Assembly (NCBI GenBank): GCA_016793875.1
Contig: JAEULG010000031.1
Coordinates: forward strand, 1-38,680
Origin: Rhodospirillales bacterium
Lineage (GTDB): Bacteria; Pseudomonadota; Alphaproteobacteria; Rhodospirillales; Defluviicoccaceae
DNA length: 38,680 nucleotides
Reading direction: 5' to 3'
Positions 21,833 through 24,530 of this stretch are shown here, piece after piece. The notes beneath the pieces are model-generated. The model was not told the origin of the DNA. It searched no databases and was given only the letters and a program-made list of their open reading frames with translations. The first letter of the stretch is position 1. Each line of letters opens with the position of its first letter. The translations under genes and the position numbers were made by a program.

Positions 21833-22705
21833 ATGCCGGAGACTTCGCGCAAGATCATGCTCGTCAGTGATGACGATAATTCTGCCGTTCGTGTCCAACA
21901 CGCCATTCAGGCGGTCCTGGACGGCGCGGTGGTCACGACGCAGCGGCCCGATGCGTCCCTCGATCACCCAGCCGAGGTCGCGTACGATCTGCTGCTCGTC
22001 GATGTCGACAGCAACTGGATGGAGACGATCGTCCGCCTTCGTCAGCAGCAGCCGGATGCCCCCCTTATCGCCATATGCGACTCCTCGAGAAAGGCAATAG
22101 AGGCACTTCAGGCGGAGGCCCAGGGTCGCCTGGGTAGCCCCGAGCGAGAAGGCCCAGTGGTAGCGTGCGCCCTCCGCGACGCGATCAGGTGCGGCAGGTT
22201 CCAGCTCAGTTCCAGCGAGACGGGCGAACAGCTTTCCCAGGATCGCGAGATTGCCAGGCTTGGCGCTCTCGGCAGTCCGGTACCCTTGCCATCGACGGAG
22301 CGCAGCTTTGGAGCGATGCCGCTATCGCACGCTGAGGCCCTAGGCTTTGCGTCGCTGGTGGAGCGCTATGGTGCGCTGCTTGACCAGACACCGGTGAACG
22401 CGTCGGCAAAGGATCAATCCGTATTTGTCTCGAGCCTCATCGATATTGCGGATCACCTGGGAGCTTTGGAGGCCGGGCCACGGGACGCCGTCGATCTGCA
22501 CAAGGCCGCAATGGCCAGCAGGCTCAAGGGTCGCACTCCATCCGAGAACCGGGTCTACGTGGAGGAAGGCAGGCTGCTGCTGGTGCAGTTGATGGGCTAT
22601 CTCGTCTCCTACTACCGTCGATTGTCGTGGGGATCCCGATCGGGCGGCTCCTCGCCCACCACGCCCTTCCGCGCGGATCGACAGCCGCAAGGAAGAGGGC
22701 CGTAA
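21833..22705 (+). CDS. KaiA-like protein: degenerate receiver plus KaiA-type C-terminal domain
   Basis: A 290-residue protein. Residues 6-115 form a receiver fold: DDD at 13-15, LLLVDVD with Asp57 at the acceptor position, and LIAICDSS in place of the Thr strand. The conserved Lys position reads GSPE, so phosphorylation is doubtful. After a linker, residues 166-263 are helical: VDLH (221-223) and GRLLLVQLMGYLVSYYRR (246-263) match in order and spacing the LEIH and YRLTLIDVIAHLCEMYRR segments of cyanobacterial KaiA, as I recall them. The related RsbU N-terminal fold is the main alternative. The stop overlaps the kaiB start by one base. GGGAGGAG lies 13 bases upstream of the ATG, a long spacing. 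By context it should act on KaiC; this is inferred. Confidence 0.75.
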   Translation: MPETSRKIMLVSDDDNSAVRVQHAIQAVLDGAVVTTQRPDASLDHPAEVAYDLLLVDVDSNWMETIVRLRQQQPDAPLIAICDSSRKAIEALQAEAQGRLGSPEREGPVVACALRDAIRCGRFQLSSSETGEQLSQDREIARLGALGSPVPLPSTERSFGAMPLSHAEALGFASLVERYGALLDQTPVNASAKDQSVFVSSLIDIADHLGALEAGPRDAVDLHKAAMASRLKGRTPSENRVYVEEGRLLLVQLMGYLVSYYRRLSWGSRSGGSSPTTPFRADRQPQGRGP

Positions 22706-23007
22706 TGAAGCGCTTCGTCTTGAAACTCTACGTCGCCGGTCGCACCCCACGCACCGAGCGGGCGATTTCCGCGATGCAGGCGATCTGCGAGAAGGATCTC
22801 GCGAGTGTCTACGACCTCGCCGTGATCGACGTGCTAGAGCGGCCGCAGCTTGCCGAGGACGAGAAGATTCTGGCGACACCAACAGTGGTCAAAGAGCTGC
22901 CACCGCCGCTGCGCCGGGTTGTCGGAGACCTGTCAGACCGGGAACGCGTTCTTGTCGGGCTGGACCTCGTTCGCACGGTCTCTGTAGAGCAGAAGAGAAA
23001 CCGATGA
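22705..23007 (+). CDS. kaiB: Circadian clock protein KaiB
   Basis: Thioredoxin-like, fold-switching partner of KaiC. 100 residues, the size of KaiB. The N-terminal FVLKLYVAGRTPRTERAI and the strongly conserved ATPTVVKELPPPLRRVVGDL (residues 57-76, including the cis-proline region) identify it. The frame is open further upstream, but the ATG at 22705 (TAATG overlap with the upstream stop) gives the standard N-terminus MKRFVLKLYV. The stop overlaps kaiC by four bases (ATGA). In cyanobacteria KaiB binds phosphorylated KaiC and sequesters KaiA; here the coupled upstream gene suggests the same trio. Confidence 0.95.
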   Translation: MKRFVLKLYVAGRTPRTERAISAMQAICEKDLASVYDLAVIDVLERPQLAEDEKILATPTVVKELPPPLRRVVGDLSDRERVLVGLDLVRTVSVEQKRNR

Positions 23008-24530
23008 CAGCTGCCGTGCCATTCTCGTCTGTCCACAAGGAAGAAACAGGCATTCCGGGATTCGACTTCATTGCCGACGGCGGCCTACCCCATGGCCGGA
23101 CGGCGCTGGTTTCGGGAACCGCCGGCTCCGGGAAGACGATCTTCGCCACGCAATTCCTGGCCGAGGGTATCCGCCGCCTCAATCAGGCCGGCGTCTTCAT
23201 TACCTTCGAGGAGCAGCCCGAGGACATCCGTCGCAACATGCGGAGTTTTGGCTGGGATATCCAGCGCTGGGAGGACGAAGGGGCTTGGATGTTCGTTGAT
23301 GCTTCGCCGGAGCCGAGCCATGAGATGACAATCGTCGGCGATTACGACTTCGGCGGGTTGCTGGCAAGGATCGAGCATGCCGTCCGTTCCGTCGGCGGCT
23401 CCCGGGTGGCCCTCGATTCGATCGGTGCCGTTTTCAGCCAGTTCGCGGGTGCAAGCCGCATCCGCCACGAACTCTTCCGGATCGCGTCCGCTCTGCGCGA
23501 TATGGGAGTGACGACGATCCTCACGGCGGAGCGACGCGAGGAGTACGGAGCAATCGCGGTGAACGGTGTCGAGGAGTTCGTCGCTGACAACGTCATCATT
23601 CTGCGCAACTCGCTGGAGGACGAGAAGCGGCGCCGCACCATCGAGATCCTCAAGTTTCGCGGTACCACTCACCACAAGGGGGAGTATCCGTTCACCGTCA
23701 TTCCGACCGACGGCATCGTCGTCATTCCGCTGTCGGCGATCGAGCTCAAGCAGCGCTCCGGCGACATCCGCGTGACCTCGGGCAACAGCGACCTCGACCG
23801 GATGTGCGGCGGCGGCCTCTTCCGCGACTCGATCATCCTCGTTTCAGGTGCGACCGGCACCGGCAAGACCCTGCTCAGCACCCATTTCGTCGATGGCGGC
23901 GCTGCCGCAGCCGAGAAATGCCTGCTCTTCGCCTTTGAGGAGAGCCGCGAACAGCTCGGCCGCAATGCGATCGGCTGGGGCATGGACTTCGATGCAATGG
24001 AACAGGAGGGCAAGCTGCGGGTGGTCTGTGAGTACCCCGAGGCGGCCGGGCTGGAGGACCACCTTGTCCACATCAAGCATCAGATCGAGAACTTCGCGCC
24101 GAACCGCATCGCGGTCGACTCGATTTCGGCGCTGGAGCGCATCTCGACGGTGCGGGGTTTCCGCGAGTTCGTCCTGGCCCTGACCTCCTTCATCAAGCAC
24201 AAGGAGATCACCGGCCTGTTCACCTCGACGACGCCGACGTTGACCGGCGGCACCTCGGTCACCGAAGCGCACATCTCCTCGATCACCGATACCATCGTGC
24301 TGCTGCGCTATGTCGAATTGTTCGGCGAGATGCGACGGGGGCTCACGGTGCTCAAAATGCGCGGATCGACCCACGAAAAGGACATCCGCGAATTGAGGAT
24401 CGATAATCGGGGCATGCACATCGGCGCTCCCTTCCGCAACGTTGCGGGAATCCTTTCCGGCAATCCCGTACAGGTCGCCGCGCTGGAGATGGAGCGTCTC
24501 GACAAGCTGTTTCCGATGGACGGTGCGTAG
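23004..24530 (+). CDS. kaiC: Circadian clock ATPase/autokinase KaiC
   Basis: Duplicated RecA-fold ATPase, 508 residues (cyanobacterial KaiC is 519). CI: Walker A GTAGSGKT (38-45) and catalytic Glu69-Glu70 in FITFEEQPED. CII: Walker A GATGTGKT (282-289), Glu312-Glu313 in FAFEESREQL, and the phosphosite segment VTEAHISSITDTI with Thr420, Ser425 and Ser426 at the positions of Thr426, Ser431 and Thr432 of Synechococcus KaiC. The C-terminal FRNVAGILSGNPVQVAALEM corresponds to the A-loop and tail that KaiA grips, although the extreme C-terminus is shorter. It is the last gene of the three-gene overlapping operon. Confidence 0.96.
   Translation: MTAAVPFSSVHKEETGIPGFDFIADGGLPHGRTALVSGTAGSGKTIFATQFLAEGIRRLNQAGVFITFEEQPEDIRRNMRSFGWDIQRWEDEGAWMFVDASPEPSHEMTIVGDYDFGGLLARIEHAVRSVGGSRVALDSIGAVFSQFAGASRIRHELFRIASALRDMGVTTILTAERREEYGAIAVNGVEEFVADNVIILRNSLEDEKRRRTIEILKFRGTTHHKGEYPFTVIPTDGIVVIPLSAIELKQRSGDIRVTSGNSDLDRMCGGGLFRDSIILVSGATGTGKTLLSTHFVDGGAAAAEKCLLFAFEESREQLGRNAIGWGMDFDAMEQEGKLRVVCEYPEAAGLEDHLVHIKHQIENFAPNRIAVDSISALERISTVRGFREFVLALTSFIKHKEITGLFTSTTPTLTGGTSVTEAHISSITDTIVLLRYVELFGEMRRGLTVLKMRGSTHEKDIRELRIDNRGMHIGAPFRNVAGILSGNPVQVAALEMERLDKLFPMDGA

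Follow-up and report, generated by a model that had tools for sequence, protein, structure and literature searches.

A KaiA3-type gene that opens a kaiB-kaiC operon in a member of the Rhodospirillales encodes a likely partner of KaiC

KaiABC clocks have long been described as cyanobacterial, and proteobacterial KaiBC systems as hourglasses. A locus on contig JAEULG010000031.1 of a Rhodospirillales bacterium (assembly GCA_016793875.1), analyzed here as a window of 38,680 nucleotides, raises the question whether a proteobacterial kaiB-kaiC pair may be driven by a KaiA-type protein of its own. Three genes, in the order kaiA-like, kaiB, kaiC, were found on the plus strand at 21833-24530 from the open reading frames. 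By sequence profile and predicted model the C-terminal domain of the first protein is KaiA-like, and the protein was found to resemble KaiA3. It is likely that it drives KaiC phosphorylation, and the locus would therefore be a candidate for a daily timer in a host that is not a cyanobacterium.

The preliminary description of this DNA had read three genes overlapping by 1 and 4 bases, a kaiB and a kaiC among them, in an apparently alphaproteobacterial host. This reading holds. The kaiA/kaiB junction is TAATG (1-base overlap) and the kaiB/kaiC junction is ATGA (4-base overlap); ATG 22705 was taken as the start of kaiB, whose mechanical open reading frame begins at GTG 22627. The kaiB product matches Pfam KaiB over its cut-off (E 3.9e-26) and scores above the cut-off of NCBIfam NF006798 (127 bits, cut-off 110) but under that of TIGR02654 (121 vs 145), while the kaiC product exceeds both NCBIfam cut-offs (NF006799, 713 bits, cut-off 408; TIGR02655, 627, cut-off 546). 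The alignment places Glu pairs at both positions of KaiC that we take to be catalytic, and searches of PDB gave 710 bits to the best KaiC, 8zn5, and 345 to that of Rhodobacter, 8dba. Two named relatives, L005 and L014, are titled Rhodospirillales, in agreement with an alphaproteobacterial host. In the window genome (3.43 Mb in 301 contigs; listed completeness 99.3%) kaiB is present once, and PF06745 has four matches, two of which are this kaiC and two partial matches elsewhere (34-37 bits). The same gene order was found in 8/8 other searched family members holding the kaiA3-type gene (kaiA being split in L124), and since it recurs in this way the operon is not a chance arrangement.

Pfam KaiA (PF07688) gave no match to the window protein at E up to 1, nor did any of 29 relatives exceed its cut-off (0/29). 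As Pfam gave the first protein no KaiA match and only a weak receiver match, its KaiA nature had to be assessed by profile, fold and synteny. When the predicted model of the C-terminal domain was compared to PDB by Foldseek, ranks 1-10 were all KaiA, as were ranks 1-8 by VIA. The profile of the domain is collinear with cyanobacterial KaiA profiles along the domain (A4/A6 profile comparison, alignment A4 being the window and 54 of the 80 named loci listed). In 64/80 of these loci kaiB or kaiC comes right after the gene. KaiA did not come up in PDB searches, whether the query was the window protein by itself or the C-domain profile A2. When the full-length model was submitted to fold searches, receivers took up the match lists, which are thus uninformative on the C-domain. 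A long helix at residues 108-147 is predicted in the model. The KaiA-like domain proposed in the preliminary description was thus supported by profile alignment, fold search and synteny. A structure search for a placement with RsbU had also been suggested there, as had a survey of related kaiBC loci; KaiA, not RsbU, came out on top, and the upstream gene is present in the related loci. RsbU is not among the VIA matches for the domain, an absence that carries no weight. Domain searches of the window protein gave nothing of the DNA-binding or enzymatic kind, and a literature search for His270 returned nothing.

Proteins of the KaiA3 kind are known from the literature. Kobler et al. (2024; PMC11372060, which like the other papers given here by PMC number is cited from part of its text) report that KaiA3 binds KaiC3 and promotes KaiC3 phosphorylation in Synechocystis, that KaiA3-KaiB3-KaiC3 of Synechocystis sp. 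PCC 6803 oscillates in vitro, and that KaiA3 orthologs occur outside cyanobacteria in Roseiflexus, Chloroflexus, Chloroherpeton, Rhodospirillum and Bradyrhizobium. The R. rubrum ortholog, Rru_A3293, lies before kaiB2 and kaiC2 (PMC10931921). Records of kaiABC outside cyanobacteria, for example two named ones, were given by Dvornyk and Mei (2021; PMC8113500); the cited part of Schmelling (2017; PMC5520375) has KaiA found only in cyanobacteria. The novelty that the preliminary description saw in a KaiA-type partner of a proteobacterial Kai system is therefore lost to the published Rhodospirillum and Bradyrhizobium orthologs.

Like KaiA3 of Synechocystis, the window protein was found to join a receiver-fold N-terminus to a KaiA-like C-terminus, and its gene lies directly before kaiB and kaiC. 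The receiver fold carries a phosphorylatable Asp. The assignment to KaiA3 was linked via loci of Roseiflexus, Chloroflexus and Microcystis, genera treated in PMC11372060, and not via Sll0485 itself. The gene-order exceptions given in that source for Chloroflexus and Microcystis recur among the loci listed, where 7 Microcystis loci have no adjoining kaiC and 3 Chloroflexus loci neither kaiB nor kaiC. The window differs from the Synechocystis system in that its receiver lacks Lys and Ser/Thr, its KaiC has Ser-Ser sites, and a hybrid kinase and a stand-alone regulator are conserved in divergent orientation; moreover, a profile search of the window genome for the photosynthetic reaction-centre family PF00124 gave no match. 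With canonical KaiA (PF07688) the window protein shares the C-terminal fold, the collinear profile and a receiver-like N-terminus without a complete phospho-switch, but it lies under Pfam detection and keeps the Asp that the canonical pseudo-receiver has lost (PMC11372060).

The C-terminal tail of KaiC was also compared. The window KaiC has a tail of 39 residues counted from GMHIG, compared to 96-109 in 9 KaiCs unlinked to a KaiA3-type (A3) gene, and the C-terminal extension of about 50 residues seen in the KaiC2 or Rhodobacter type is not found in it. The tail pattern [ED]x(1,5)[LMIVTFEYQ]x(1,3)[LM]F was chosen after viewing a first set of 89 KaiCs and had only the standing of a hypothesis there. 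It was present in 66/70 A3-linked KaiCs of that set (66 beside an A3 gene, with two contigs counted twice as L129 equals L005 and L130 equals L014, and 4 in loci with such a gene), the misses being L009 and L048 (broken or cut), L133 and L136. It was found in 0/6 KaiCs beside canonical KaiA and in 0/13 unlinked KaiCs, nine of which have tails of more than 70 residues, three are short and one is the second KaiC of L131; for two of the unlinked, L061_9788 and L131_2754, the genome holds an A3 gene elsewhere. The three short ones (L202-L204) fall within the A3-linked clade of the tree and end before the motif.

With the pattern fixed beforehand, 38 loci that turned up on scanning 398 genomes of the phylum for kaiB served as a held-out set. 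Six of the 38 were lost for want of a kaiC of at least 400 amino acids, L236 and L245 of these having an A gene. The pattern was present in 23/23 KaiCs with an A3 gene in the fetched stretch, to which the A-gene search was confined, versus 1/11 without, and 10 of these 11 have tails of more than 70 residues. Relatedness was handled by clustering at 85% identity only, which left 10/10 versus 1/9 clusters; the highest identity between a held-out KaiC and the first set is 72.3%. What appears new here is that A3-linked KaiCs carry a short tail motif nearly absent from unlinked, mostly long-tailed KaiCs, as read from their sequences. The split between short motif and long tail fits the report of Pitsawong et al. 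(PMC10076222) that the extended tail of Rhodobacter KaiC stands in for KaiA, and we infer that the motif may be the docking site for the KaiA3-type protein.

With respect to the phosphorylation sites, the 66 linked KaiCs were found to have Ser-Ser in 18, Ser-Thr in 46 and another pair in 2, and the held-out 23 A3-linked KaiCs Ser-Ser in 16 and Ser-Thr in 7. The cited part of PMC10076222 ascribes the two-serine annotation to the long-tailed KaiC2 group; unlike there, the Ser-Ser pair is frequent in short-tailed, A3-linked KaiCs. The window KaiC falls in a 63-row A3-linked clade (quick tree search; Shimodaira-Hasegawa-like approximate likelihood ratio test, SH-aLRT, 97) that also holds the cyanobacterial A3-linked KaiCs L021, L036 and L040; Synechocystis KaiC3 lies outside the tree sample. 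The tree left out L009, with its frame-broken kaiC, and the duplicates L129 and L130, which the tail count kept. Aligned sequences give this KaiC Ser-Ser instead of Ser-Thr sites, which is new here, and because of this it was not filed as KaiC3 proper. In L228 and L235 (Pseudomonadota) a region holds two KaiCs, a Ser-Ser one that scores near 750 bits and a Ser-Thr one that scores near 600. Both follow an A3-like gene in L235; of the two in L228, one follows such a gene and the other starts where the contig ends.

The receiver part of the window protein has a weak Pfam match (18.1 bits vs cut-off 30.2), and its fold is backed by the model and by VIA receiver matches. Asp57 and the acidic Asp13/14 are retained, while the Ser/Thr position is Cys82 and the Lys position Ser102, so that an intact phospho-switch (Asp, Ser/Thr and Lys) is not present; such a switch is not named as a KaiA3 requirement in the cited text of PMC11372060, which also gives the Asp as missing in Pleurocapsa and Microcystis KaiA3. 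Alignment A3 held 66 of the 92 proteins found, PAS-type, partial and three 324-amino-acid proteins being left out, and was divided at a boundary of our own drawing into nearer relatives (P0001 to P0025 of the ranked list) and others (P0026 and below); a Lys one column off was accepted. Among the 22 nearer rows (identity 29-100%) Asp was found in 20/22, Ser/Thr in 6/22, Lys in 0/22 and all three in 0/22, versus 41/44, 36/44, 40/44 and 36/44 among the other 44. Across seven family genomes (L124 was left out, its kaiA being split) L125, L127 and L130 have the Asp, while L126 and L128 have Glu in its place, L129 has Gly and L131 has Met; Thr is retained in L129 and L130 only and Lys in none. L133, which belongs to the same taxonomic order as the window's host, has Asp, Thr and Lys. 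From these alignments the receiver appears to have decayed in the lineage of the window while the KaiA-like domain stays.

Next door, the stand-alone regulator and the hybrid histidine kinase were found divergent from the operon in 8/8 family loci (L124-L131), although the kinase is incomplete in three, cut by the contig end in L129 and split in L124 and L131. The regulator residues DD, D, T and K are canonical in 9/9 (the window and 8 relatives); the regulator had no match in L132 to L137 at E 1e-5. Compared to the window, the 8 relatives have 67-88% identity in the regulator versus 38-53% in the KaiA C-domain. For the KaiA receiver the identity is 24-31% over 75-160 columns in five relatives and 46% over only 24 columns in L131, with no alignment in L126 and the split gene of L124 not comparable. 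Because the regulator is strongly conserved and the KaiA receiver poorly, input may have passed from the receiver in KaiA to a receiver in trans. Decay of the receiver among the nearer relatives, with a canonical regulator and hybrid kinase kept next door, is new here as far as the sequences go. Neither the tail motif nor the decay of the receiver nor the conserved pair of kinase and regulator came up in literature searches, which did not name these features and covered few subscription journals and no preprints.

An inverted repeat in the divergent intergenic region was considered as an operator and dropped: its arms are not common to the 8 relatives, the GC-rich arm occurring in 0/8 of their regions and the TTGCTCG core once each in three of 8. 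No operator is claimed, since inverted repeats are not shared by these relatives. In the single-contig genome G387 (L124:5737-6665), kaiA lies in two open reading frames and the kinase in four, perhaps through sequencing errors. Two further neighbours are ordinary, a PolB-related 3'-5' exonuclease domain (25128-25922) and a bifunctional riboflavin gene (36248-37372). Coordinates are collected in Table 1.

Table 1. Features of the kai locus and its surroundings, in positions of the window.
Feature	Position	Strand	Description
kaiA3-type gene	21833..22705	+	290 amino acids; degenerate receiver, long helix, KaiA-like four-helix C-terminal domain
Receiver part of KaiA3-type protein	21833..22207	+	residues about 5-120; receiver fold in model
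KaiA-like C-terminal domain	22310..22639	+	LEAGPRDAVDLHK ... YVEEGRLLLVQLMGYLVSYYR; residues about 160-268, four helices
kaiB	22705..23007	+	100 amino acids; ATG at 22705; 1-base overlap with kaiA
kaiC	23004..24530	+	508 amino acids; two KaiC domains; 4-base overlap with kaiB
Ser425 and Ser426 codons	24276..24281	+	aligned with Ser-Thr phosphorylation pair of other KaiCs
KaiC tail motif EMERLDKLF	24486..24512	+	predicted docking peptide for KaiA3-type protein
Divergent intergenic region	21590..21832	.	14-nucleotide inverted repeat, arms 21696-21709 and 21716-21729
Stand-alone single-domain response regulator	21185..21589	-	canonical DD-D-T-K; divergent from kaiABC
Hybrid histidine kinase	18376..21198	-	PAS repeats, HisKA, HATPase, C-terminal receiver; 14-base overlap with regulator gene

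The KaiA3-like domain was found to be widespread. A scan of named contigs gave at least 80 loci, and the phylum and synteny counts refer to 80 listed, most of them titled as metagenome-assembled genomes. They fall in at least 16 named phyla, of which 15 are bacterial and one is Candidatus Helarchaeota, with three loci without a phylum. Downstream on the same strand, kaiB and kaiC follow in 52 (14 named phyla), kaiB alone in 8, kaiC alone in 4 and neither in 16; among the last, L046 and L062 have kaiBC on the other strand and L077 ends 193 bases past the gene. The N-termini, classified with homemade models, are receiver in 59, PAS in 9, both in 1 and other in 11, and Pfam revealed MASE3, 4HB_MCP-HAMP-PAS and MEDS-PAS forms among 10 proteins scanned. 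New here, as read from sequence matches, is that the domain occurs in at least 16 named phyla, joined to sensor domains of the receiver, PAS, globin or membrane type. Nearer to the window, the 385 genomes of the class gave the domain in 6, kaiB over cut-off in 14 and both in 4, and 60 relatives including the window genome gave 11, 15 and 10, respectively. Genomes with the domain and no kaiB match are G195 (L089), G298 (L137) and G398 (L132), the match in G398 being interrupted by one TGA. Within the family of the window the domain is present in 8/10 other genomes, and the remaining two are without kaiB as well.

Some of these loci have unusual arrangements. In P0088 the domain is fused with protoglobin and PAS, and the protein might sense oxygen as an input to a clock. 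The two Nitrospinota loci with kaiBC on the opposite strand are L046:4645-6324 and L062:4636-6345, and Pfam places a 4HB_MCP, HAMP and PAS receptor part before the KaiA-like domain of L046. On a Candidatus Helarchaeota contig of 604 kb (L047), two kaiBC pairs come after a receiver-KaiA3 gene.

Altogether, these observations suggest that the KaiA3-type protein would dock on the C-terminal tail of KaiC and stimulate its autophosphorylation, that KaiB would then likely capture the KaiA3-type protein so that KaiC dephosphorylates, and that the conserved kinase and stand-alone regulator probably supply the signal that the degenerate receiver would no longer take. We regard this account, taken whole, as probable. 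By analogy, the set may work like its Synechocystis homologs.

The strongest alternative is a timer that is only hourglass-like or driven by the environment, in which the KaiA3-type protein tunes KaiC phosphorylation without self-sustained oscillation. The Ser-Ser sites and the degenerate receiver both speak for it, as does R. rubrum, where, according to the cited part of PMC10931921, nothing definitive was concluded on rhythmic kai expression despite the kaiA3 ortholog before kaiB2 and kaiC2. The Rhodobacter sphaeroides KaiBC hourglass (PMC10076222) is likewise proteobacterial with Ser-Ser sites, but its KaiC ends in a coiled extension and is not accompanied by KaiA, whereas the window KaiC has its short tail and a KaiA3-type partner. 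The window KaiC belongs to the short-tailed clade and does not have the extension, about 50 residues long, through which phosphorylation in Rhodobacter is independent of KaiA (PMC10076222); it therefore probably needs a KaiA partner. The in vitro oscillation of the Synechocystis homologs (PMC11372060) also argues against an hourglass, which we consider quite possible while judging it to fall short of probable.

Alternatively, the KaiA3-type protein could be a phospho-responsive output regulator that reads KaiC rather than a KaiA-type activator on the input side. Its N-terminal receiver fold would suit that role, as would the intact receivers of many other KaiA3-like proteins (36/44), but the receiver has decayed in the lineage to which the protein belongs (0/22 with all three residues) while the KaiA-like domain is retained, an output domain of the DNA-binding or enzymatic sort was not found in the window protein, and Synechocystis KaiA3 raises KaiC3 phosphorylation (PMC11372060); we consider such a role improbable. 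That the C-terminal domain is a partner-binding bundle of stress signalling of the RsbU/RsbR type with no special relation to KaiA is scarcely credible given the KaiA matches leading both fold searches, the collinear profile over the domain and the position of the gene before kaiB or kaiC.

Returning to the KaiA3-driven account, a bolder extension would make the KaiA C-domain a portable module, carried on varied sensors in at least 16 phyla including an archaeon, the decay of the cis receiver with its job taken by regulator and kinase a second route to a pseudo-receiver KaiA, and the present locus a self-sustained Ser-Ser KaiABC oscillator in a non-photosynthetic proteobacterium. This we put forward tentatively and think rather unlikely as a whole. 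If KaiA3-type partners are common and tracked by the tail motif, bacteria likely to have a KaiA-driven timer could be recognized from sequence, and purified proteins would allow direct tests of the docking, of the Ser-Ser cycle and of the passage of the input from cis to trans.
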